Source: a virus. From it: a stretch of DNA of 24,585 nucleotides. A model generated the notes under the pieces. It saw only the letters and a program-made list of their open reading frames with translations. It ran no database searches and was not told the origin of the DNA. The stretch's first letter is position 1; each line of letters opens with the position of its first letter. Positions 2,580 to 18,805 of this stretch are shown here, piece by piece. Where the stretch lies: positions 1 to 24,585 of the IMG/VR virus record IMGVR_UViG_3300034104_001215; one strand, given 5' to 3'. A program made the translations under genes and the position numbers.

Positions 2580-3371
2580 CTAACCGCCCTTGATGATGAA
2601 GCCGACCGCCAGGTACGGAGGCATGACATTGACTGCCGCCCCCGTCCCGCTGCCACCGTCGGTGGTGGCTGTGCTCGCCGGGATGTCGAATGTGTGAGTG
2701 TGCGGAGCCGACGCCGCTGCCGTCGAGCCCGACACCGTGTGGGTGTGATTCGGAATCGACAGATTCAGCGTGATCGGGGTGCGGTTACCGCCGTCGCGGG
2801 CAACGTCCACCTTCGCAAACGTCTCGACGCTGCTGACACCGTTGGTGCCTGTCGAGATATTCCACGACCGTGCGTACGCGCCTGCACCGTCCGCAACGAG
2901 TGCCCCCGCTGCGTGCGAATGAGAGGCGTCGGCACTAGCCGTCGTCCCCGTTCGAGCCGGGATTGAGACAGAGTGCGTGTGTGACGGCAGGTTGCTCTGC
3001 GTCAGGGTCACCTGAGCAGCGCCGCCCTTGGCCCCGATGGCCCAGGACTGGCCCGACTCGGTGCCGATGGGGAACCTTCCGCGCAGGTCAGGCAACTTGA
3101 CCATGCCCGACGACGCGGCACCGAAGTTGGTGCCCAGCAGGGCAGCCAGTTTCGGGTTGGTCGCAGCGGACACCTCGGCACCGTTGCAGAGGAACCAGCC
3201 TGTCGGTGCGCTCACGCCCGCGAAGGGCAGGATTGCTCCGACCGGGATGCCGATGAGCGCGTCCACGCTGTTCGCGAATTGGACGAACGCGTCGGGTGCG
3301 TTGGCCGGGTCACTCAACTCAGGCACCGTGTACCTGTTGCTAGAGCCCGGTGGCTGATGGGTTACGGGCAT
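2580..3371 (-). CDS. Tail-collar domain fibre protein
   Basis: A 263-aa virion protein probably at the tail tip or fibre. Residues 40-105 match the phage tail collar domain: IPVGAILPFAG, then PTGWFLCNGAEVS, and LPDLRGRFPIGTE, the pattern found in T4 gp12-type and many other fibre proteins. The rest contains repeated His-Thr-His motifs (SHTHS, HSHA, NHTHT, HTHTF), which in related short tail fibres form metal-stabilised trimers. The end PPYLAVGFIIKGG is also typical of collar-family C-termini. GAAGAGG precedes the ATG. It lies directly after the S74 fibre gene, three bases away, and the two are likely parts of one adhesion apparatus. Trimerisation and receptor contact are family knowledge, not shown here. 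Confidence 0.9.
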   Translation of the reverse strand: MPVTHQPPGSSNRYTVPELSDPANAPDAFVQFANSVDALIGIPVGAILPFAGVSAPTGWFLCNGAEVSAATNPKLAALLGTNFGAASSGMVKLPDLRGRFPIGTESGQSWAIGAKGGAAQVTLTQSNLPSHTHSVSIPARTGTTASADASHSHAAGALVADGAGAYARSWNISTGTNGVSSVETFAKVDVARDGGNRTPITLNLSIPNHTHTVSGSTAAASAPHTHTFDIPASTATTDGGSGTGAAVNVMPPYLAVGFIIKGG

Positions 3372-3374
3372 TGC

Positions 3375-4625
3375 TTACCTCTTCCTTCGGTCGCGCTTGG
3401 CCGTGGTCGTCGTGGTGGGCGTGGCTTCCGCAACGGTGGCGTCTGCCGCCGCGACGGTGGCCGTACCCTCGAGGGCTGCGATCCGCTCAGTCAGCGCGTT
3501 GATCTGCGCCTCCTGCCGCTGGCACAGCGCGACGAGACCAGCCAGGATCGGTCGCTCGGAGTAGTCCACAACGGTCTTGCCGTCCTCGCCGTACACGCCA
3601 GCGCCGGGGCCGTAGTTTGCGACTACGTCCTCAGCGATGAATCCCATCTGGTCGTAGTGCGGGTCTTCCTTCTCGTACAACTCCTCGTTGAAGAGGAAGT
3701 GAACGGGCTCGACAAGCAGCGTCTTGTCGGCCAGATCATCCGCTGGGCGAATGTTGGCCTTGAACACGCGCGATGACGAGAAGTAGCCGACAAGGTTGTC
3801 TGTCGCTCGACGGTGCAGCGGCTGTTGAGCATTAGTGAAGTTCTGAAGAACCGCGCTGATCTCGAGCCCCGTACCACGGATTCGCGTGTTGGGCGTTGCG
3901 GCTGCGGTGACAACAAACTTTGCCGTCGAAGTTGTGGTGTTCTGCTCCACGCCCAGATAGGACGCGCCCCGCAGAATGTTCTCACCGCGCAGCGTTTCCA
4001 CGCCTCGCTCGGCGATGAAGTCGCCTGCCCACATCTGCCCCGTCTGGGTGTCCATCCGGCACGTCGCCGGAACGCCAGAGTTGAGCAGTCCCTGCGTGAA
4101 CTGGATGTAGCGCGTCAGAATGAAGAGGTTGGCGTCGTTTGTCTGGCTCCACGGCCCCAATTGGATCTGGGAAGACGCACCGCTGGCTTCAAGCCAGAGA
4201 TGGTGAGTCGCACCGCTGGTGTTGCTGGACTGGATGCGGGCGATGTTGTCGCCCACACCCTGCATCGCGTTAGCGGTGATATCCAGTTTCGGGCCCGACT
4301 TGGCGGTCGCGTTCTCGTAAAGGCGGTGTGTTCTGCCCTGGTCGAGGTCACCGACAACGTCGATTGGCCCGAAGATCCGCTGCGTAACCCCTCCTGGCTG
4401 CAACCTGACGTAGCGACCGTCAGCCTGCGCCACAGTCATGTAGTTAGCCAGGTCAGCCAGCGTCGCGTAGTTGGCGATGATGTTGTTGAAGTCGGAGATC
4501 AACAGGTACGGATCGAGCGCAGCGTCGATCAGCGCGTTGACCTCCGACTCCGACAACCCACCGCTGCCATCAGCACCCTTGAGGCTCTGCCACGTCGTGC
4601 CGTCGTAGTACATAAGGTCAGACAT
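3375..4625 (-). CDS. Tail fibre with C-terminal S74 intramolecular chaperone
   Basis: A 416-aa fibre or spike protein. Residues 1-20 are a short adaptor shared with the neighbouring 288-aa protein (MSDL..., then SLKGADG). Residues 30-280 are a variable stalk or receptor region. Residues 283-388 are an S74 (endosialidase-type) chaperone: SSSRVFKANI supplies the Ser and Lys289 of the self-cleavage dyad, followed by QMGFIAEDV, VDYSERPILAGL and a coiled coil (about 362-388). In this family the chaperone drives trimer folding and then cuts itself off. Unusually, the coiled coil is followed by a 28-residue Ala/Thr-rich segment with TPTTTTT and a basic tail KRDRRKR. AGGAGG nine bases before the ATG marks the start. 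Confidence 0.9.
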   Translation of the reverse strand: MSDLMYYDGTTWQSLKGADGSGGLSESEVNALIDAALDPYLLISDFNNIIANYATLADLANYMTVAQADGRYVRLQPGGVTQRIFGPIDVVGDLDQGRTHRLYENATAKSGPKLDITANAMQGVGDNIARIQSSNTSGATHHLWLEASGASSQIQLGPWSQTNDANLFILTRYIQFTQGLLNSGVPATCRMDTQTGQMWAGDFIAERGVETLRGENILRGASYLGVEQNTTTSTAKFVVTAAATPNTRIRGTGLEISAVLQNFTNAQQPLHRRATDNLVGYFSSSRVFKANIRPADDLADKTLLVEPVHFLFNEELYEKEDPHYDQMGFIAEDVVANYGPGAGVYGEDGKTVVDYSERPILAGLVALCQRQEAQINALTERIAALEGTATVAAADATVAEATPTTTTTAKRDRRKR

Positions 4626-4650: not shown

Positions 4651-5517
4651 CTACGGAACAATCCAGAAGTCGCCGGGATTGGCGGTGGCAGGCATGTCAG
4701 GCTGCTGGTACACGGTCACGCTGTAACCGTCGAGACCGTCAGCGCCGGGAGCGCCGTCAGCACCAGCAGGGCCAGCAGCACCGTCAGCACCAGCGGGGCC
4801 TGCGGGACCCTCGGGGCCTGCCGGACCCTGGGGGCCCTCGACGAGGACGAAGTCGAGGACTGCCGCCTCGGGCGTTCCGCTGTTCGTGACGCTTGCGGTT
4901 CCACCGCTCGGGACCGATGTGGTCGTGCCGACAGCGATGGTCGCGGCAGCGCCTGCGGGGCCCTCGGGGCCAGCAGCGCCGTCAGCGCCAGCCGGACCAG
5001 CGGGACCCTCGGGACCTGCAACGCCAGCGGGACCCTGCGGGCCCTCTGCACCCTCGAGAGATGCGAGCCATGCGGCCTGATCACCGACGAAGCCGTTCGC
5101 AACCGCGATCTCGTACGCGGACAGACCGTTGGTGCCGTCAGCGCCAGCGGGACCAGGGTCACCCTGCGGGCCCTTGATGGAGCCAGCGTCAACCCAGGTC
5201 TGGTTGTCTTCGTCCCACACCCACAGGTTGCCGTCGATGAGCCAGCCGTCACCAGGCTGACCAGTCGGGGGAAGATCACCGGGAGTAGGAACGGTGCCCT
5301 GGATCGTGATGGACGTACCGTCGGCACCAGCGGGACCCTGAGGACCCTCGGGGCCCTCGAGTGATGCGAGCCACTCAGCCTCGGTGCCGACGAAGCCGTT
5401 GGCAACAGCGATTGCGTAAGCGGAAGCACCGTCAGCACCAGCAGGCCCCGCCGCGCCGTCCGCGCCCTTGAGAGAAACCCAGGTGTTAGGTGCAACGTTG
5501 TAAAGCAGATCAGACAT
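4651..5517 (-). CDS. Collagen-like tail fibre protein (288 aa)
   Basis: A Gly-X-Y rich fibre protein. Order: adaptor 1-20 (MSDLLYNVAPN, then SLKGADG); a SAYxIAVANGFVG...WLASLEG module at 32-54, repeated at 133-155; a VPTPGDLPP...WVDAGSIKG module at 76-115; collagen-like triplets at roughly 18-30, 55-67, 116-130, 156-190 and 228-263; and a C-terminal GDFWIVP. Collagen-like segments in phage fibres form trimers, and the intervening modules occur in many phage and bacterial surface proteins. The stop of the 79-aa gene is fused to this gene's ribosome site (TAGGAGG). It also ends in the same GDFWIVP as that 79-aa protein, so the two are probably related by duplication. The receptor is unknown. 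Confidence 0.85.
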   Translation of the reverse strand: MSDLLYNVAPNTWVSLKGADGAAGPAGADGASAYAIAVANGFVGTEAEWLASLEGPEGPQGPAGADGTSITIQGTVPTPGDLPPTGQPGDGWLIDGNLWVWDEDNQTWVDAGSIKGPQGDPGPAGADGTNGLSAYEIAVANGFVGDQAAWLASLEGAEGPQGPAGVAGPEGPAGPAGADGAAGPEGPAGAAATIAVGTTTSVPSGGTASVTNSGTPEAAVLDFVLVEGPQGPAGPEGPAGPAGADGAAGPAGADGAPGADGLDGYSVTVYQQPDMPATANPGDFWIVP

Positions 5518-5525
5518 GAGTCCTC

Positions 5526-5765
5526 CTAAGGGACGATCCAGAAGTCACCCATCACCGTCGAATCAACGGGGGGCTCGACATAACTCTGTGTGACAGCGAC
5601 GCTGCGACCCGGTGGTCCCTCAGGACCCTGTGGGCCAGCAGGACCCCCCGACGGAACCCAGCGAGTACCGTCCCAGCGATTCCAACTGTCGTCATTCGTG
5701 TTGTACCAAAGGTCGTTCACATTCGGTGCGACAGGCGCAACCGGAGAAATTGTTGCCGGAAACAT
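5526..5765 (-). CDS. Short collagen-like tail protein (79 aa)
   Basis: A 79-aa protein starting at the ATG at 5763-5765, chosen because TAGGAGG lies four bases upstream, with the TAG being the stop of the previous gene. The frame is open further upstream but that part overlaps the neighbour. Order: Pro/Val-rich N-terminus; a Trp/Asn-rich segment (NDLWYNTNDDSWNRWDG, residues 17-33); four Gly-X-Y triplets (41-52); and a C-terminal GDFWIVP identical to that of the following 288-aa protein. It looks like a compressed version of the same fibre architecture. A role as a linker or minor tail-tip fibre is inferred from position. Confidence 0.75.
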   Translation of the reverse strand: MFPATISPVAPVAPNVNDLWYNTNDDSWNRWDGTRWVPSGGPAGPQGPEGPPGRSVAVTQSYVEPPVDSTVMGDFWIVP

Positions 5766-5773
5766 GCGTCCTC

Positions 5774-6031
5774 CTACTGAGCCGTCGTTCCGATGCACAC
5801 CATGAGCGCGCCTTGATGGAGAAGCCATGCGCGGTCACCGACGGTGGCCGTCGGAGTCGCGACACCGAAAGCGCGCATGATCGGAATGTTGGGACACAAG
5901 GCCCCTGCAAGATCGACGGTGACCGTGTCGCCGTTGACCTCAGTAATGGTGCCGAAACGCAGCGTCGTGGACAGCGAGGTCGCTGTATCGACGGCGGCTC
6001 GCAGCACAGCGTCGTACGGGTTCGTGTTCAC
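5774..6031 (-). CDS. Small tail-tip protein (85 aa)
   Basis: An 85-aa protein with GTG start at 6029-6031 that overlaps the TGA of the DUF5047-like gene by four bases (GTGA). Its sequence has a beta-barrel pattern typical of small baseplate or minor tail proteins: FGTITEVNGDTVTVDL, then a Pro-containing turn, then VGDRAWLLHQGALMVCIG. Proteins of this kind commonly follow the DUF5047 gene in actinophages. I recognise the pattern but not a named family. A short OB-like fold in the tail-tip complex is inferred. No transmembrane segment is seen, and the ribosome site is weak, consistent with coupled translation. Confidence 0.7.
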   Translation of the reverse strand: MNTNPYDAVLRAAVDTATSLSTTLRFGTITEVNGDTVTVDLAGALCPNIPIMRAFGVATPTATVGDRAWLLHQGALMVCIGTTAQ

Positions 6032-7923: not shown

Positions 7924-10900
7924 TCAGAGCCTCCTTCCGGAACGGACGTAGTTCGCCGCTGTCACGTCACGATTCGTCATCTGCACGTCGATGATGTCCG
8001 TCAACTCGCGGTCACCGATGAATACGCGCACCTCAGGTGCCGACTGGCCCGCCACGTCAGGCACGGCGGCGTTCGCCATGCGAACCGCCGAAGCCTCGAT
8101 GCGTCGAGTCGTCTCATCCATGCCGACCGCGAGCCCCTCACCGACCATCTCACCCATGTAGCGAGTGACCTTGGATGGTGACTGGATCTCGAGCGACTTG
8201 CGGATGATCTTCGCGATCTTGTCTGCCAGCGCCTTAGCCGCCGCAACGACCTTGTCGTCGTTCTCCGTCATGCCGTCGATGAGGCCCTTAGTGACCTCAA
8301 GGCCAGCCGCGTAGGACGACGTGGTCAACTTGCGGAACTGCGCCTGGACGCTGTTGCTGATCTCGACAGCCGTCGCCTCGTTAGCCTTGATCTGCTTACC
8401 GAGAGCGTCGGTGTACTCGTCGTAGGACTTCTCCAGCGCCTCGAGCGCCTGATCGCGCTCCAACTCGAGCCCGTCGTACACGGCCTTCGCTGCATCGACA
8501 GCGGCCTTCGCGTTGTCCACGATGACCTGCTGCTCCGCGATCCCGGCGTTGAACCAGGCATCAGAGGAGAAGGCGCTGAACTCGTCAATCTGTGACCGCA
8601 GTTCCGACTGAATCGTGTTGACCTCAGCGAGCACGTCGTCGGACGCATCCGACAACTGCTTGACCGCCTCAGCCGACGACTCGGGCCCCGCGTTCACCAA
8701 CTGCTGAATCAGGCTGGCGTCGAGACCGCGAGCCTGTAGGCCCTTGATCTTCGCGAACCAGTCCTTCAGCGTCTGAAGCCGCGTCTCAAGGGACTCCTTG
8801 AACGAGGCCGTCCGCTGCTTCTGCTCGGTGACGAACGAGCCCACACCGTCGATGCGAGTGAACTGCTCGTACGTCTCCTGCTCGAGATCCAGCGCGTTGA
8901 CAAACGACGTGGCCGTCTCGCGGATCGAATCCAAGAACGAGTTACGCTCGTCGATGAGGTCGCTCAACTTGTCGTTGGCGGTCTCGTACGCCGACGTAGC
9001 GTCGTCCAGAACCTTGCTCGCGGCCTCAATACGCTTCGCGTAGTCAGCCTCGAGATCGGCCTTCTGGGAATCGAAGAGGGCCTCGCGGCGCTCCTCCAAC
9101 TCCTCGTTCTCGCGGATCAACTTGATGACCGACGCCGTCTGCTTACGCAGCGACTCGAGGTCAGCCTTCATCTTGACCGTGGCAGCCTTAGCCGCCTTGG
9201 ACCCGACCAGCCACTTCGCCGTGGCGGGGCCGTAGAACTTCTTCACAGCCTCCGACAGGTTGTCGTACAGGCCGATGATGGAGTCGATGCTGTCGCCACG
9301 GAAGGTCTTCTGGATATCCGACAACTCACCGAAGGGGCGGCGAACCGCATCACGCATCGTCTTGAGCCCGTCCAGGGCCGCGTCGATGATCTCGCGCAGT
9401 TTCGCCAGCCAGTCCTTCCATTGCTGGATAGCAGGATCGACCTTGGAGCCGCCGCCACCACCGCCACCGCCGCTGCCACCACCGCCGCCACCGATTGCAG
9501 GTGGCTTGAACTCAGGCACCTCAGGAGTGGACGCACCAGGCGTGGCGTATCCACCTGGCGGTGGAGTACCGACGTAGTCACCCTTGTCTGCCGTGTACTG
9601 CACTCGGTAGTACAGCGTCTTATAGATAGGCGTTGACCAGATACGCGCAACCGTTGCCGAAGACGTTGCGATCTGATTGACAGCAGACGTAGCAGCGCCA
9701 GCCGCCGTGTCCGCGACACTCTGCAACGCCGCCACCGCGCCAGCAGACGCGTCCTTGACTGACTGGCTTACAAATGGACTGATCTGAATGATGCTGTTCA
9801 TTCCGTTCGCGATGAGCAGGAAGGCGCTCACCAGCGCAGTCGCACCCGAAGACACGACCAGAACCACACCATTCCAGATGCCGACCATGGCTTCCCACCA
9901 CGTCCGAACAACACGGATGAGAACGCCAAACGCCGCCACCGTAACGTTGAGTGCCTCGGGCAGCGTCTTGTTCCAGAAGTCAGTAGTCGTGGCGTAGTTG
10001 TCCTCGAGGCCCGCGAACGCGCCCTCCAAGTAGTAGCCAAGGTTCTCAAACGCCGCACCGATACCAGCAAACATCTGGTCAAGTTGACCCAGAAACGCCT
10101 CGACACTTTGCAGCGCCTTTGTCAGCCACTTCACGAACGGCTGGAAAGCCTTGCCCATCTGCACGGTGACAATGTCACCAAGGTTCGCCCAGATACCTTG
10201 CAGAGATTGACGCGCCTTCGCGGCACCCTCTTGGTACTTGTCACCCAGAGCGAGAATGGCTGGGATAAGTACATCCGCAGTCATCTTGCCCTGCTCGGTG
10301 AAGTTCTGGGCCTCCTTGACCGACACGCCCTGCTGCTTCGCGACTTCCTTGTACACGTCGGCCAAGTTGATGCCAGCGTTCGCCAACTGGCGAAGGTCGA
10401 TACCGTTGGCTTTGCCTTGCGCGTTGACCTGACCCAGCGCGTACGCCATGTCGTTCAACTTGGCAGCAGAGATACCAGTTGCCGAGCCGAAATCAGAGAA
10501 GAACTTCAACAGGTTCTGGCGCACGCCGTCAGCAGTCACACCGTAGGAGAGAAGCAGGCGGTTGGCGTCGGCAAGATCCTGTGTCGGGACAATGGACTCC
10601 TTGGACAGAGCCTGGAGAAACGCGACTTCCTTGTTCGCGCGCTCGGCAGAACCCAGCAGAGCCTCGTAGCGGATCTTCAGCATCTGAAGATCGCCACCAG
10701 CCTGAGTGCCGAACTTACCTAGCGCCGTAGTAGCAGCCCCAGCCGCGATTGCGACGCCACCCAGCGCGGCACCTGCGGCCAGGAATCCAACCACCATCGG
10801 ATTGACAGCAGCAGGAATCGCCGTCACAGCGCCCAGCAGACCAGACAGAACACCCGCAGGGTTGCTGTACTGAATGTTGGCGAACGCCTGCGACATTCCA

Positions 10901-12935: not shown

Positions 12936-13343
12936 CTAGCGCGACGAGGTGTTAGCGGAACGTCCGGCTTCCTTGCCACGAAGCATGAAGTGCGTCGCAC
13001 TCGTCTTCTTCGTCCCGTTCTCCCAGCGAACCGTCGCCGGATGGTGAGACACAGCCAGGTACACCTCGATGGTGGATCCCGGCGCGATCTTGTTTCGCGT
13101 GAACTTCGAGTTCGCGCTGATCACACGCACCGCACTCAGCACCTCGGACTTCTCACGAGCCTGCCACGGTGCGCTGGTGGGAGCGGTACTCAGCACCGCT
13201 CGCGCGTTGTCCGCAACCAAGTCAGCCGTGCGACCAATCGCCGCCACCGTGCCTGGATCCGTAGACGCCTTAGTGGCTACCTCGCGAAACGTTTCAGCGC
13301 CACGAAAGCCCTCGGTGCGAGCGCGCACCACAATGCGGGCCAC
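12936..13343 (-). CDS. HK97 gp10-like head-tail joining protein
   Basis: A 135-aa protein starting with GTG at 13341-13343, overlapping the TAG of the upstream gene by one base (TAGTG). The open frame extends further upstream, but that part lies inside the neighbour. It begins MARIVVRARTEGFRG, is basic, and has a C-terminal motif RWENGTKKTSATHFMLRGKEA, which resembles the conserved end of the HK97 gp10 family (a Gly-Thr segment followed by a Pro/His-Phe-Leu/Met-Arg motif). That family acts at the head-tail joint. Gene order (head closure, gp10-like, terminator, tube) supports the call. Confidence 0.75.
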   Translation of the reverse strand: MARIVVRARTEGFRGAETFREVATKASTDPGTVAAIGRTADLVADNARAVLSTAPTSAPWQAREKSEVLSAVRVISANSKFTRNKIAPGSTIEVYLAVSHHPATVRWENGTKKTSATHFMLRGKEAGRSANTSSR

Positions 13344-13693
13344 TAGGAAACCTCGCTCAGAGTGCCGCGACGCAGCAGAAGAGTCTGGTACATGACCTTG
13401 CTTGTCTGCGGATGCCAATGAGGCTGCGCCTGACCGTCGGGCGCGTAACGCTTGCCCTCGATCTGCACCGACTCGATGTGGTCAGTAACCACGTCGGGCT
13501 GAAGGTAGAGGAGCATGCCAGCGACAACCTGCTCACCGCCGTCCACTACCGACTCGGTGCGACGTGGACGGTAGTAGGCCAGCACGGTTTCCGTGCGCTT
13601 AGAGGCACCAGATGGAAGGTTGTAACGGTCCACAGCCACCGTGTCCCGATGCGTCAGCACGACCTCGGCAGTCATCAGATGTGCCGGAATCAT
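13343..13693 (-). CDS. Head closure (stopper)-like protein
   Basis: A 116-aa protein at the head-to-tail junction. The ATG is preceded by TAGGAGG with four-base spacing, where the TAG is the stop of the upstream collagen-like gene. The sequence has mixed beta strands, a central GGEQVVAGMLLYLQPDVV and a His/Pro-rich DGQAQPHWHPQTSKV near the end. Similar small proteins between adaptor and gp10-like genes in actinophages are called head-to-tail stoppers and seal the portal after packaging. What is odd is its distance from the adaptor gene: five or six unrelated genes, including lysis genes, intervene. The call is positional plus general resemblance. Confidence 0.7.
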   Translation of the reverse strand: MIPAHLMTAEVVLTHRDTVAVDRYNLPSGASKRTETVLAYYRPRRTESVVDGGEQVVAGMLLYLQPDVVTDHIESVQIEGKRYAPDGQAQPHWHPQTSKVMYQTLLLRRGTLSEVS

Positions 13694-13701
13694 CGAGCCT
13701 C

Positions 13702-14505
13702 CTATACGTCTACACCTGGCAGCACCGTCGGGAACTCGTCGTCAGTCAGCCAGTAGAACTGGCCGCTGTACAGCACCCCAGGCGCGGACAGATTCACCGA
13801 ACGGATCAGCAGGTCCGAACCGATGACCTCAAGCGCAGCACCACCGATGCCGCCAGTCGCGACAATCGGTGTGGACTCAGCCCAGCCAGCGGGGCGGGTG
13901 AACCCGTGCGGCAGCGTGAACACCTTCGGTGTCGCGCCAGGAGCAGCAGCCAGGTTGCCCAGCCGCACAGCGACAAAGTTGCCGCTGCGACGCAGGAACA
14001 GCCCAGGCATGTTGCCCTCGACAGCAGACCAGCCAGCATCCAGAGTCGCTGACACATCGCGCCAGCCAGAGTCCTGATCAGGGACAGGCGTCGGCCCCAT
14101 GCCACCGATCTGACCCATATCGACGTAGCCGTTCTCACCCGCAGCGGGAGAGTCAGGGTCGTAAACCCAGACGTGACTCGTGGACTGGTCAATGAACACC
14201 GACATATGGTCGGGATTCGGTGGCAGGTCATCCGGCGTCGGAACGACACCCATCGGGTCCAGCGTGTTACCAGGCGGGCCAGGAGGCCCAGGCTGTGACT
14301 CGATGTTGTTGATCGCCTCCCAGATGCGCTCGATCTCAGCCCAGATCGCGTCGATCTGCGCCTGATCACCAGGCGTGAGGCCGTTCTCAAGTGCGTTATT
14401 CAGCAACTCGATCATCTGCGCCAGCAACTTGTGCAGCGTCGTGTGATCGTGGTCGGAGAAAGTGGCGCGCTCTGTCAGCCTAAGAATCTCTTGCAGATCA
14501 GCCAT
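13702..14505 (-). CDS. Neck-region fibre-like protein, paralogue 3
   Basis: A 267-aa protein starting at the ATG at 14503-14505, which overlaps the TAA of paralogue 2 (TAATG) and follows GGGGGTG. Residues 4-47 carry the shared N-terminal module (RLTERATFSDHDHTTLHKLL, then NALENGLTPGD). A short coiled coil (48-70) and only two to three Gly-X-Y triplets (72-80) follow. Then comes a VPTPDDLPP...VWVYD...VDMGQIGG module (88-135) also found in the 288-aa tail fibre. The C-terminal 120 residues are beta-rich (SGNFVAVRLGNL, then YSGQFYWLTDDEFP) and look like a fibre head or carbohydrate-contact domain. It probably forms a trimeric appendage with its two upstream neighbours. The attachment site on the virion is unknown. 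Confidence 0.75.
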   Translation of the reverse strand: MADLQEILRLTERATFSDHDHTTLHKLLAQMIELLNNALENGLTPGDQAQIDAIWAEIERIWEAINNIESQPGPPGPPGNTLDPMGVVPTPDDLPPNPDHMSVFIDQSTSHVWVYDPDSPAAGENGYVDMGQIGGMGPTPVPDQDSGWRDVSATLDAGWSAVEGNMPGLFLRRSGNFVAVRLGNLAAAPGATPKVFTLPHGFTRPAGWAESTPIVATGGIGGAALEVIGSDLLIRSVNLSAPGVLYSGQFYWLTDDEFPTVLPGVDV

Positions 14506-15209
14506 TACGCACCCCCGGCAATCACCGCAGGCTCGTAGGCGATCCAATGCATCCTGTGTGTCGCCGTTGTGACCTGTCCAGTCTTGTGCTGAAGCCCCGC
14601 AACAACACCAGACGTACTCGGAGCGTTGTTCAGAAACGCAATGTAGTTGTTAGTGAAGTAGGGCGTCACAATCACCGCAGGCGGTCGCTGAAAGCCGTAG
14701 CCCGTGAACGGAATGTTCGTCACAGCACGCGATGCAGTCGATACAAGCGAAACAGCCGCGATGCCACATGCGATCCGGCTAATGCCAGAGACACCCGACC
14801 CAGACGTGAAACCACCATTGGCACCGGGCACACCCTGCGGACCCATCGGGCCAACGTCACCGACGGGACCCTTCTGCCCAACGCCGCCAGCGGGTCCCTG
14901 CGGACCCTGCGGACCCACAGCACCCACAACACCGTCGGTCCCCGTGCTTCCCTGCGGCCCAGGAGGGCCTGCGACTCCTGGCGGGCCAGGAGACGACTCC
15001 AACACCGTGATCGCTTCCTGCACCGCCTGGATACGGGCCTCCAACTCAGCCAGATCCATCGGGCCACCCACCTGACCCGAATCAAGCATGGTCTGCAAGT
15101 CGTTCAGCACCGTCGCGAGCGACGTGTGGAGCGTGGTGTGGTCCGCGTCTCCCAGCGTCGTACGCTGAATCAGACGCAGCGTCTCGTCAAGCGAACGCGC
15201 GTCAGTCAT
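14505..15209 (-). CDS. Neck-region fibre-like protein, paralogue 2, with lectin-like C-terminus
   Basis: A 234-aa protein. The ATG at 15207-15209 has GGAGG six bases upstream and overlaps the TGA of paralogue 1 by one base (TGATG); a GTG one codon earlier is too close to the ribosome site. Residues 7-45 are the shared module ([17 protein letters not shown]). A coiled coil (50-72) leads to about 18 collagen-like triplets (74-132). The C-terminal 75 residues ([15 protein letters not shown], then MHWIAYEP) resemble the H-type lectin fold used by phage fibre tips and discoidins: a hydrophobic strand with Pro-Pro and a final Trp-Ile-Ala. Sugar binding is therefore plausible. It sits between two proteins with the same N-terminus and different heads. 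Confidence 0.75.
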
Positions 15210-15919
15210 CACGCACCTCCAGTTGATCCCGTGGACGACGATGCAGAAATCTGAACGGCAGACCAGTTGACGAGCACATCACGCGTCGTGGCCTGCGGAG
15301 ACAGAACCGACACCGTCAACCGCATCGTCGTAGGCGAAGTCGAGTCAATGCTCACCCAGCCAGCCGAAGAGCCCTGCGCCACGCCAGACGCAATGGGAGA
15401 CAACGTGAAGCCTGCGTTGAGCGGGATATCAACCGACAAACCGTATGCGTTTGCCGGAATGCTGACCGCAGTCACTCCATTCTGGAACGCGAACACCGCA
15501 CTCACAGCGTTCGTGCCGTTCACGCCAGGTGGGCCTTGCGGACCAGCAGGACCCGTGTCGCCCTTCGCACCAGCAGGCCCGACAGGGCCCGTAGGCCCAA
15601 CGGGTCCCTGAGGCCCCTCAGCACCCGCAGCGCCGTCCTGCCCAGGAGCGCCAGCAGGCCCAGCAGGACCCTGCGGACCGGGAATCAACTCAATCGACGC
15701 AACCTCCTGCTCAAGGGCAGCCACGTCAGCCTTCAACTCCTCCAGCGACGCAGCGTCCCCAGGAGTGGAGCCGTTCTCAATCGCCGTATTCAACGTCTCG
15801 ACCGACTGCGCCAACTGCTTGTGCAACGCCGTGTGGTCGGAATCGCCAAACGTGGTGCGCTCAGTAAGGCGAAACACCTCATCAAGCGGCAAGTATTCTC
15901 TAGCCTTCTTCTCAGCCAC
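15209..15919 (-). CDS. Neck-region fibre-like protein, paralogue 1, collagen-like
   Basis: A 236-aa protein starting at the GTG at 15917-15919, which lies four bases after GGAGG; an in-frame start 15 bases earlier overlaps that site. Residues 12-55 are the shared N-terminal module ([20 protein letters not shown], then [10 protein letters not shown]). A coiled coil (58-78) precedes about 18 Gly-X-Y triplets (80-134). The C-terminal 100 residues are beta-rich with [20 protein letters not shown] and a Ser/Thr/Gly-rich end. The domain order of anchor, coiled coil, collagen stalk and beta head is that of a trimeric fibre. It follows the holin gene and starts a run of three such genes. The C-terminal domain is not recognised. 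Confidence 0.75.
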
Positions 15920-15958
15920 ACGGCCTCCAATCACACGGCGCGGTCGTGCGCCAAAGAA

Positions 15959-16213
15959 TCAGTCCGACTCAACAGAGTCAGACGGGGGTGCGGGCCGCTG
16001 GCCCTGACGCCGCACAGGCGACGCCAGGCCAGACGACCACAGCAACCCACCGACACCCGCAGACAACGTCGCCATAGCGACAGCCATACGGTCACGGTCA
16101 AGAGTCCACACACCCCAGATGCCCATCACGGCACCCAGCAGAGTCGCAGCAAAGCCGAGACCCCACATCACCCACAGAGCCGCCTCTTCACCGGGCGGTG
16201 GAATCAGACGCAT
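15959..16213 (-). CDS. Holin-like membrane protein (84 aa)
   Basis: An 84-aa protein with two predicted membrane helices: about residues 11-36 (AALWVMWGLGFAATLLGAV) and 43-64 (MAVAMATLSAGVGGLLW), joined by a short charged turn (TLDRDR), followed by a charged hydrophilic tail with Arg and a final acidic end. This is the layout of a class II holin, which makes the membrane lesion that releases the endolysin. It lies 20 bases after the endolysin stop, strongly supporting a lysis role. GAGGAG sits five bases before the ATG. A small virion membrane protein is an alternative, since the gene is inside the structural block. Confidence 0.75.
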   Translation of the reverse strand: MRLIPPPGEEAALWVMWGLGFAATLLGAVMGIWGVWTLDRDRMAVAMATLSAGVGGLLWSSGLASPVRRQGQRPAPPSDSVESD

Positions 16214-16233
16214 GGATACTCCTCACCGCGCGA

Positions 16234-17172
16234 TCAAGGCACGTTTGCACCGAACAGATGCAACTGCGTCTTCTCCGAGAAGTTGCCGTGCGGCTCCTCC
16301 CAGCCAAGCGACGCCTGGAAGTTCTTCACCGCACCCTGCGGGTACGGCTGCTCACCAACGGGCTTCGGCGGGTCCTCACGGAAACCCAGGTCATAAAGCC
16401 TGCAAGCCACCCGCCACGTTGACTTCACGCACAGATCGTTCTTGTCAGCCTCAACGACCTTCTCGCGCGACGGAATCGTCCCGTCCCACGTCGTTCCGCG
16501 AACCGACGACTCCTTGACCTTCTGACGCCAGAACGGAGCGTTGTACTCCTTCGGCTTATCGGAACCAGGCCAAGCGCCCCAATCACCATCAAGCGTGTCG
16601 TTCTTACGCCCAAGAGTGCGAGAAGGCTCGTCGTTCCAGCCGTGGCAGCCGTCGGTGTAGCACTTGTGCGTACCCACAGCCTTATCCACATCCCAGCCGC
16701 ACAGATTCGCCAGAGCAGCGAGCATCTTCGCCGTGTTCTCGATCTGGTAGTCAGTCAGCGTGCCAGCGCGCACACCAGCGTCGTCAATCTCAATGCCCCA
16801 CAGGCGATACTGGCCGTGGTAGCCAGACGCGATATCGAGCGGCAGCACAGGGCCACCGTCACCACAATGGTAAGCAGAGCCAGCCGACAGCAGGTAAGTG
16901 TCGCCAGGGCCACGGCCCACAACGACATTGCACGCCGGGTAGTCATCCCAGCCGTACGGAGCCGCACACCACTCAAGTGTCGGACAGCCGGACGAGCCCG
17001 TCGCAGATGCCGTAGCCGTGTGATGGACAACTGCACCGATCAGACCAGGCGAACCGTCCGGACCCTTCCATTGCCGACCGCGCGTATCCCAGCCGCGATA
17101 GGTCTTGATGTCAACACCACCATCGCGCAGCGCAGCAAGCACCTGCGACGGGGTCGGATTCTTGTTAGCCAT
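16234..17172 (-). CDS. Endolysin: N-acetylmuramoyl-L-alanine amidase
   Basis: A 312-aa cell-wall hydrolase. Residues 20-200 are an Amidase_2 (PGRP-type) domain: AVVHHTATAS supplies zinc ligand His50, YHCGDGG and WGIEIDD follow, GTHK supplies His169, and the GRKNDTLDG loop holds the third ligand or catalytic residue (Asp192). The enzyme cuts the bond between muramic acid and L-alanine. The C-terminal 75 residues (YPQGAVKNFQASLGW, then GNFSEKTQ) resemble a peptidoglycan-binding domain (PG_binding_1-like). No signal peptide, so it needs a holin; a holin-like gene follows by 20 bases. It lies two bases after a 47-aa ORF. Its place between head adaptor and neck genes is unusual, since lysis genes usually follow the tail genes. 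Confidence 0.93.
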   Translation of the reverse strand: MANKNPTPSQVLAALRDGGVDIKTYRGWDTRGRQWKGPDGSPGLIGAVVHHTATASATGSSGCPTLEWCAAPYGWDDYPACNVVVGRGPGDTYLLSAGSAYHCGDGGPVLPLDIASGYHGQYRLWGIEIDDAGVRAGTLTDYQIENTAKMLAALANLCGWDVDKAVGTHKCYTDGCHGWNDEPSRTLGRKNDTLDGDWGAWPGSDKPKEYNAPFWRQKVKESSVRGTTWDGTIPSREKVVEADKNDLCVKSTWRVACRLYDLGFREDPPKPVGEQPYPQGAVKNFQASLGWEEPHGNFSEKTQLHLFGANVP

Positions 17173-17174
17173 GA

Positions 17175-17318
17175 TCAGCCCTCCGGATCATCAGCGAGAT
17201 CGAGAATGTCCTCAGGGTTGGGGAAACCCTCGACAACCTCCGGAACAAAGTTTGGATTCGGTTCAATCTCCACGTCCGCAGCGTCAATATCGCCACGAAC
17301 CTCATCGTTGCTACGCAT
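17175..17318 (-). CDS. Small acidic 47-aa protein
   Basis: A short frame starting at the ATG at 17316-17318, three bases after the TGA of the adaptor gene, with GGGAGGTGA giving a good ribosome site. Its TGA is two bases before the endolysin ATG. The peptide is strongly acidic (about 15 Asp/Glu in 47 residues), starts MRSNDEVRGDIDAAD and has repeated Pro-Asn/Pro-Glu turns. It has no recognisable domain. It fills exactly the gap between two genes, so it is likely translated. A role as a small chaperone or inhibitor for the endolysin, or a minor virion part, is only a guess from position. Confidence 0.7.
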   Translation of the reverse strand: MRSNDEVRGDIDAADVEIEPNPNFVPEVVEGFPNPEDILDLADDPEG

Positions 17319-17321
17319 CAG

Positions 17322-17834
17322 TCACCTCCCGTGAACCCAGCGCGTCTGGAAGCCATTCGCATGCGACGGCTCCTCCCAATGCCCCAGCGGATCGCTGAAC
17401 GGGGCCTCAGGGTTGTCAATGTCAAGCGGCGCAGGAGCAGTCACATGCACCGACTTGAGAGCGCCACCACAGCCCGAAGCGGACGTGATAACGCGAGCCT
17501 CAGCACCAGAGAACGGACCCGTTCCCGTGCCAGAGCCAGAACTGGAGCCCGCCAGCGTGTACGAATACTCGCCAATGGTCTCCTGCCGAATCCCACGAGG
17601 ATTCGACGCCATGCGCGACAACGAAGCCACGCACACAACCTGAACGTCGAGCGGCAGAGCCGCCCACGAAGTCCACTCGCTGCGCTTACACGGCGCAAGC
17701 AGGCGAACGTACGTCAGCGTCTCCGCAGCCGCGACAGCCAACCACTCAGGGTCAACATCAACACCGGAGCGCGCCTCAACAGCCTGCTCAAGAGCAGCCA
17801 ACTCGTCCGGCGTCATCACGGTACGTCCACTCAC
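17322..17834 (-). CDS. Head-tail adaptor-like protein
   Basis: A 170-aa protein starting at the GTG at 17832-17834, chosen because AGGAGG lies five bases upstream. The frame runs upstream into the major capsid gene, but that segment is not typical. It opens with MTPDELAALEQAVEARSG shortly after the start, has a helical middle (WLAVAAAETLTYVRLL, LDVQVVCVASLSRMASNP) and then GEYSYTLAGSSSGSGTGTG with a Gly/Ser loop. That pattern of helices plus a YSY-G element is characteristic of HK97 gp6/SPP1 gp15-like adaptors that dock on the portal. It follows the capsid gene directly, as in most siphophages. Confidence 0.8.
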   Translation of the reverse strand: MSGRTVMTPDELAALEQAVEARSGVDVDPEWLAVAAAETLTYVRLLAPCKRSEWTSWAALPLDVQVVCVASLSRMASNPRGIRQETIGEYSYTLAGSSSGSGTGTGPFSGAEARVITSASGCGGALKSVHVTAPAPLDIDNPEAPFSDPLGHWEEPSHANGFQTRWVHGR

Positions 17835-17899
17835 GACGGCCTCCTCAGCCCGCGCCAAGGAGGGGGCCGAAGCCCCCTCCCTAGCAGCGAGAACGGTTA

Positions 17900-18805
17900 C
17901 TACTTGCTCGACTTGGTCGAGGTGGTCGTGGTCGCCAGCGGCGCAGCCCCACCAAGGGTCAGCGCAACGAGGCACTCGTCGCGGATGACCTCAGCCTGGA
18001 GGTAAGCGTCGAAGGACACAACGTCCTGCTTACGCGGCTGGTCGTAGCCGAACACCACGCGCATCGCCTGCGAGTCGTACGACTCCACGGCAGCGTTCGC
18101 CACGCCACGCGGCATCTGCGGCGTGATCGAGATGAACGTGACGGCGTCCTTCTGGACGAGGTAGGCGGCGTCGGGATCGACAACCACAGACTCGACAACG
18201 GGCGAGCCAAGAATGCGACCGATGGTCGCGTTCCGCAGAGCGCCAGCGTCGCCAGCCTGGTCGAACTTCAGCAACTGGTCGCTCGAGAGAGCAGACGCAG
18301 CGACGTTCGAGCCAAGGACCCAGACGCGGTTGTCGGCGGGAACTTCCTTCATGTTCATGCGCTTGCGCGCCTCGATGAAGGACGGGATCGGGTTAGCCGG
18401 ATCGGCAATCGAGACAACGTCAGTCGCCTTAGCGAGCGCGTCAGCAATGATCTCCTCGGACTTGCGAACCATCGCCTTGCCAGCGGGCTCGGCCACCTGG
18501 AAAGCGAAGTCGGTGAGGTGCAGATCCCACTGCTCCTGCGTGATGACAGCAGACACGTCCCAGATGTCCTTGACGGTCAGAGTCATCTTGTCCTCGATCA
18601 CGTCCTGCGTGACAATGCCAGCGGCACGGTCGAACAGGTTCGTGGTCAGAGTCGCCTGCTTGCGAATGGTGATCGTGTCACCGGACCCGCCACCGAACTC
18701 GGTGACGAACGTACGGTTGACAACTCGCGGCAGAACAGCGTTGTACTGGAAAGTTGCAAGCGCAGTACGAGCGACGTTCTGCGGAGTGATGAAGGTGTTA
18801 GCCAT
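17900..18805 (-). CDS. Major capsid protein
   Basis: A 301-aa protein that should form the icosahedral shell. It begins MANTFITPQNVARTALATFQ, contains VNRTFVTEFGGGSGDTITIRK and later VWVLGSNVAASAL and SFDAYLQAEVIRDECLVAL, a pattern I associate with the P22 coat/Gp5-like branch of HK97-fold capsid proteins. It follows a separate scaffold gene, so no N-terminal delta domain is needed. The C-terminus ends in a Thr/Ser/Lys tail (LATTTTSTKSSK), similar in style to the end of the S74 fibre. AAGGAGA lies five bases before the ATG, and tandem hairpins fill the gap upstream. Confidence 0.9.
   Translation of the reverse strand: MANTFITPQNVARTALATFQYNAVLPRVVNRTFVTEFGGGSGDTITIRKQATLTTNLFDRAAGIVTQDVIEDKMTLTVKDIWDVSAVITQEQWDLHLTDFAFQVAEPAGKAMVRKSEEIIADALAKATDVVSIADPANPIPSFIEARKRMNMKEVPADNRVWVLGSNVAASALSSDQLLKFDQAGDAGALRNATIGRILGSPVVESVVVDPDAAYLVQKDAVTFISITPQMPRGVANAAVESYDSQAMRVVFGYDQPRKQDVVSFDAYLQAEVIRDECLVALTLGGAAPLATTTTSTKSSK

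Follow-up and report, generated by a model that had tools for sequence, protein, structure and literature searches.

Three paralogous fibre-like proteins with a common N-terminal anchor, encoded beside lysis genes in a virus related to actinobacterial siphoviruses

In the late region of this virus, a relative of actinobacterial siphoviruses, three adjacent genes encode fibre-like proteins, here called G1, G2 and G3, which we consider likely to be paralogous trimeric adhesion fibres that dock to the virion through a common anchor. The window, i.e. the whole stretch of 24,585 nucleotides that was analysed, comprises positions 1-24,585 of the IMG/VR record IMGVR_UViG_3300034104_001215, and the fibre genes lie at its positions 13,702-15,919, in a late region that is encoded on the minus strand. 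The order and the coordinates of the three ORFs in the original prediction are real. G1 (15209..15919, minus strand, 236 aa) and G2 (14505..15209, minus strand, 234 aa) consist of anchor, coiled coil, Gly-X-Y shaft and head, the head of G2 being a predicted beta structure of low confidence. In G3 (13702..14505, minus strand, 267 aa), anchor and coiled coil are followed by a short Gly-X-Y stretch, a VPTP/VWV module and a head of the phrog_3971/phrog_6614 type.

Anchor, shaft and heads of the three proteins

The pattern RxxxRxTxxDxDHTxLHxxLA is present without deviation in all three proteins, at residues 17-37 of G1 (15809..15871, minus strand), 12-32 of G2 and 9-29 of G3, and these are the only three matches in the six reading frames of the window. 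Its presence had been correctly predicted; the limit of 35 residues that was given with it does not hold for G1, where the motif ends at residue 37, off by two. Pairwise alignments of the first 75 residues, a check that the original prediction had proposed, revealed shared sequence among all three proteins, with scores of 123, 174 and 120 compared to approximately 25 +/- 5 for shuffled sequences (0/200 shuffles in each case). Between the N-termini of G1 and G3, the identity is 52% over 66 residues (E 2e-22). These alignments support the proposed tandem duplication of one N-terminal module and identify the N-termini of G1, G2 and G3 as true paralogues at the sequence level. The anchor DNA of the copies is only 57-63% identical, which indicates that the duplications are old.

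An AlphaFold model of the anchor alone, built for the three sequences, had a mean pLDDT of 73 and contained helices at residues 4-13, 19-40 and 45-69. The single-chain model resembles a helical hairpin, and fold searches returned matches such as Rop, none of which was significant; the hairpin may differ from the state of the anchor in a trimer. Nothing significant was detected for the anchor in Pfam, PHROGs, NCBIfam and PDB sequences, by tblastn in 50,697 phage records, in viral contigs scanned by pattern and by profile and in one scan of genome contigs, or with a profile in 795 sampled actinobacterial genomes, and no significant homologue of known virion location was found. The viral-contig scans used short patterns that would miss diverged members, and the anchor is therefore an orphan within these searches. 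In Pfam, PHROGs, NCBIfam, phages and viral contigs it did not turn out to be a common tail-tip domain. Some weak matches were helical stretches that we attribute to release factor 2, or lay inside a long reading frame, and were not fibre homologues, and a Pfam match to YfcL was rejected at 20.6 bits (cut-off 25).

Directly behind the shared module, the predicted coiled coil was recovered in all three proteins as a perfect three-heptad a/d pattern, with 7 to 31 out of 2000 shuffled sequences doing equally well. It ends each anchor and runs directly into the first GPxG; in G3 all a and d positions are isoleucine. By analogy with EPclA, SPP1 gp12 and other fibres, we infer that G1-G3 trimerise through this coiled coil. 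The predicted Gly-X-Y triplets are well supported for G1 (19 consecutive triplets) and G2 (20) and weakly for G3, which has only 3; correspondingly, the Pfam Collagen model scored above its cut-off for G1 and G2 and below it for G3. The VPTP/VWV module that had been noted in G3 was likewise confirmed, and it recurs in a collagen-rich protein from the tail region of the same window (4651..5517, minus strand; 0/500 shuffles).

The heads had been described as unrelated, which is correct for G3 compared to G1 and G2 but less certain for the latter two. The head of G3 matched neither of the other heads in alignments against shuffled sequences. In a profile search it matched phrog_3971 (4.1e-10) and phrog_6614 (2.4e-6), matches that were restricted to G3, and it is 27-35% identical to the heads of Arthrobacter phage minor tail proteins (tblastn E down to 6e-8). 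Its similarity to Kalizoi gp2, GantcherGoblin gp18, Shepard gp23 and MooKitty gp14 was reached by 0/100 shuffles. By sequence relationship, the G3 head is thus a member of a known actinophage family annotated as "minor tail protein". The heads of G1 and G2 align collinearly over 88 residues with one two-residue gap and a score of 49 compared to 30.8 +/- 5.8 for shuffles, 13/1000 of which reached it. This weak similarity hints at one diverged head type. The fibre set thus comprises at least two types of head, and a third is uncertain. No relative of the G1 and G2 heads was found in the phage collection (50,697 records), and there was no Pfam or PHROG match in G1 and G2 outside the collagen part. 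With a pLDDT of 39.7, confidence in the full-length model of G2 was low, and a search for related folds was uninformative. A lectin-like H-lectin fold of the G1 and G2 heads is not claimed, as it rests on a sequence pattern only and had no Pfam match.

Gene order and the Ad1/Hc1 junction

On the minus strand, the late region begins with TerS, TerL, HNH, portal, MuF/VG15, scaffold, P22-type capsid protein and the head-tail adaptor Ad1 (17322..17975, minus strand; phrog_137, 7.7e-6). The real start of Ad1 is probably downstream of 17975, since the start at this position overlaps the capsid gene. Ad1 is followed by an amidase, an 84-aa membrane protein, G1, G2, G3, the head closure protein Hc1 (13343..13693, minus strand; phrog_501, 1.6e-6) and a 160-aa neck gene, and then by tail terminator, major tail protein, chaperones, tape measure, Dit, tail proteins and fibres. 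The 160-aa neck gene, terminator, chaperones and Dit had no profile match and were named based on gene order and matches in related contigs.

This confirms the position of the fibre genes between Ad1 and Hc1. To place it in context, we compared eight related contigs that cover the Ad1/Hc1 junction and whose TerL, where present, and capsid protein are 56-65% and 54-62% identical to those of the window, respectively. The distance from the Ad1 stop to the Hc1 start is -1, +6, -13 and -13 bases in L040, L045, L046 and L048, and tblastn placed both genes similarly close to each other in L047, L049 and L050. In L038 the junction spans +334 bases with a single 115-aa membrane protein (8023-8356). The junction of the window (13694-17321) spans 3628 bases with six ORFs. 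No counterpart of G1-G3 was detected between Ad1 and Hc1 in 8/8 related contigs, and in three more distant prophages, the stretch that follows the capsid gene was likewise free of collagen ORFs. Searches for further relatives based on the amidase and on the tail end returned no additional contigs.

Compared to these relatives, the six ORFs form one extra block at the Ad1/Hc1 junction. It begins with a 47-aa acidic ORF (17175..17318, minus strand) that fills the gap between Ad1 and the amidase. The amidase (16234..17172, minus strand), the endolysin of the block, was recognised as Amidase_2 by profile (phrog_880, 4.6e-15; PF01510, 1e-6) and had no tblastn relative among the 50,697 phage records at E 1e-5. 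The following 84-aa protein (15959..16213, minus strand) has two hydrophobic stretches, which suggest a holin-like protein; it had no family match above chance in Pfam, PHROGs and NCBIfam. The block is completed by G1-G3. With a GGAGG just upstream, the GTG at 15919 is a better candidate for the G1 start than position 15934, from which the extended ORF would begin. G2 starts with ATG at 15209 (GTG at 15212 in the ORF list), and the ATG of G3 overlaps the stop of G2. Given that the genes of the block are tightly packed or overlapping and that no excess of promoter- or terminator-like sites was found around them, the fibre, endolysin and holin-like genes are probably transcribed as one block together with the surrounding late genes.

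Since Ad1 and Hc1 abut in seven relatives, the position of the fibre genes says nothing about the attachment site of the fibres. The suggestion that they might sit on the neck or capsid because of their place in the neck module is consequently not supported: the genes belong to an inserted block with an amidase and a holin-like gene. The case thus shows that being encoded within the neck module is an unreliable indication of the location of a protein. Phage TP901-1 teaches the same lesson in reverse: there, the gene for the neck passage structure lies downstream of that for the receptor-binding protein (PMC9692632). Genes between capsid and head-to-tail connector genes have been described in Microbacterium cluster ED phages (PMC7302621), and the Pontimonas phage phiPsal1, a distant relative, carries two glycosyltransferases and a methyltransferase between its capsid and neck genes (L086, 6979-9351). 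Fibre and endolysin genes are often neighbours, for instance in phiC31 (gp49 collagen fibre followed by gp50 endolysin) and in MooKitty (gp14 followed by gp15 endolysin and membrane proteins).

Proposed function and docking site

Based on these data, we propose that each chain would start with the small helical anchor defined by RxxxRxTxxDxDHTxLHxxLA, behind which the coiled coil would join three chains. In G1 and G2 the coiled coil would continue into a collagen triple helix of approximately 57-60 residues per chain, and in G3 into a short Gly-X-Y stub with the linker module. Shaft or short linker would keep the distal head, which would bind the cell surface, at a distance from the particle. 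The common anchor could plug every trimer into one kind of virion site, so that one particle, or a population, could display different heads. Presence on the virion and receptor binding of G1-G3 are proposed by analogy with known fibres. Diverged or swapped tips would probably let the virus grip different putative features of host surfaces; alternatively, length or expression may be all that distinguishes the three copies. As to the site of the anchor, our estimate assigns about half of the probability to tail tip or tail shaft and about a fifth each to neck or collar and to the capsid, the remainder being a location off the virion.

That G1-G3 are ordinary side-tail or tail-tip fibres and only happen to be encoded beside lysis genes has not quite an even chance. 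The phage has a second group of fibre genes in the tail region, and the protein at 4651-5517, with which G3 shares its linker module, belongs to it. The head of G3 is furthermore shared with proteins annotated as minor tail proteins, although this is annotation only, and the PHROG matches of the fibres are mostly tail fibres but are driven by the collagen repeats. Against this reading, the N-terminal module was not found in any tail-tip protein and is unlike the start of the phage's own tail-region fibres: the protein at 4651-5517 and an S74-type protein at 3375-4625 share the start MSDLxY...W.SLKGADG (15/23 aligned residues identical), which differs from the G1-G3 anchor. By their sequences, the phage thus has two fibre groups with different N-termini, which fits two docking sites and would fit two separate acquisitions equally well. 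Close to its C-terminus, the S74-type protein contains a Peptidase_S74 chaperone domain. A short collagen-like relative is encoded at 5526-5828. The window also encodes a Phage tail collar domain protein (2580-3371; PF07484, 3.7e-20) and, following the latter, a small LysM protein (2281-2577; PF01476, 2e-5).

It is unlikely that the fibres are neck or collar appendages whose anchor binds the portal, adaptor or head-closure rings in the manner of the Andhra receptor-binding proteins (RBPs). Their layout matches that of the Andhra RBP (PMC9710869), and the difference between the anchor and the N-terminal start of the tail-region fibres would agree with a separate site. In addition, the best, non-significant lead for the anchor was a collar-adjacent protein of Eggerthella phage LE1-1 (E 2). 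In hhalign, the anchor and the LE1-1 family reached a probability of 44% and a score of 25.7 compared to <=17.4 in 200 column shuffles, for a lead that had been picked from a database; the LE1-1 family shares a D-x-S/T...LL...LN..hE helix and a coiled coil. An HMM of the LE1-1 family ranked the Andhra RBP first among approximately 12,000 ORFs, with G1 and G3 next, but G1 and G3 dropped into noise once LE1-1 and its nearest relative were left out of the profile. Homology between the anchor and the collar-adjacent family is thus an unproven lead. Moreover, the insertion accounts for the gene position, and Andhra is a podovirus while the virus here is related to siphoviruses. Within the LE1-1 family itself, LE1-1 gp13 (L088, 3929-4387), which adjoins the lower collar gene, and L089-L094 carry the N-terminus PFRxWxQxVLPxVYDDSLSYYELLxKVxxxLNxxIE on different C-terminal parts, and this N-terminus may be a collar anchor that is common among small podophages.

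Less likely again is a role as capsid decoration, with trimers at the centres of capsid hexamers. The precedent is SPP1 gp12, and a dispensable decoration would fit a block that is missing from near relatives; on the other hand, gp12 is a single 6.6-kDa protein. Lysis-linked proteins that are freed upon bursting, e.g. as free adhesins or decoys, would explain the tight block with endolysin and holin-like gene, but they are very improbable considering that the genes are embedded in a late structural operon, that their layout is the same as in known virion fibres and that the head family of G3 is found in proteins whose annotation places them on the virion.

Trimeric adhesion fibres with a common virion anchor hence remain our preferred reading. 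A more specific version, in which the neck or capsid of a siphovirus would carry interchangeable collagen fibres through the orphan anchor, which moved with lysis genes as a block and gave the virion a second, multi-headed adhesion set, is tentative and rather doubtful. If true, this adhesion set would be distinct from the tail-region fibres. Phage host range depends on fibres. The short orphan anchor, which occurs in three diverged copies and bears two or more types of head, is a natural case of head exchange, and two anchor classes in one phage make the docking site of each directly testable.

Comparison with known systems

The original prediction knew of no named system with such an arrangement, yet tandem fibres with a common N-terminal module exist in the Arthrobacter phages GantcherGoblin and Shepard. 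Similar to G1-G3, the fibre genes of GantcherGoblin (gp17-19), Shepard (gp22-24) and Kalizoi (gp1-2) are adjacent. GantcherGoblin gp18/19 and Shepard gp23/24 have a common N-terminal module of approximately 37-40 residues, as G1-G3 have their own, and the heads of the Arthrobacter fibres are homologous to the G3 head. The Arthrobacter genes also lie outside the usual place behind the tape measure, namely upstream of the tape measure, as for GantcherGoblin gp18/19 and Shepard gp23/24, or of the terminase. Their anchor, TPxDPxKAxxxIxG, is unrelated to the RxxxRxTxxDxDHTxLH of G1-G3 and, unlike G1-G3, these fibres contain little collagen and do not form a single block with lysis genes.

The collagen fibres EPclA and EPclB of E. 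coli prophages resemble G1-G3 in their succession of anchor, coiled coil, Gly-X-Y shaft and head. EPclA, with the architecture PfN-PCoil-Col-PfC, is trimeric by experiment (PMC3368898). The modules of these proteins recombine between prophages, their genes are of the side-tail-fibre type, and the consulted part of that source describes no shared-anchor triplet (PMC3368898). Pfam and PHROG searches revealed no link of PfN and PfC to G1-G3. SPP1 gp12 is a collagen-like, non-essential trimer at the centres of capsid hexons (PMC6813328, PMC7602432); like this protein, G1-G3 would be collagen-like, dispensable trimers on a siphovirus of a Gram-positive host. SPP1 gp12 differs in being a 6.6 kDa, hexon-bound product of one gene, and no sequence link to G1-G3 was found.

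The Andhra RBP consists of an N-terminal loop of 36-38 residues, a coiled coil of 34-38 residues and a head, its N-terminus binds portal and collar, and Andhra and P68 combine similar N-terminal loops with heads that differ (PMC9710869). A short conserved N-terminus and coiled coil with exchangeable heads is a layout like that of G1-G3, in a portal- and collar-bound podovirus protein whose homology to G1-G3 is unproven. CBA120 and other Ackermannviridae display several receptor-binding proteins of different specificity per virion, as tailspikes that are held in a branched baseplate complex via the N-terminal domains of TSP4 and are not collagen fibres (PMC8825819, PMC11414711). Compared to these systems, the novel elements are the anchor, its presence in three diverged copies, and its place in a lysis-plus-fibre block inserted at the Ad1/Hc1 junction.
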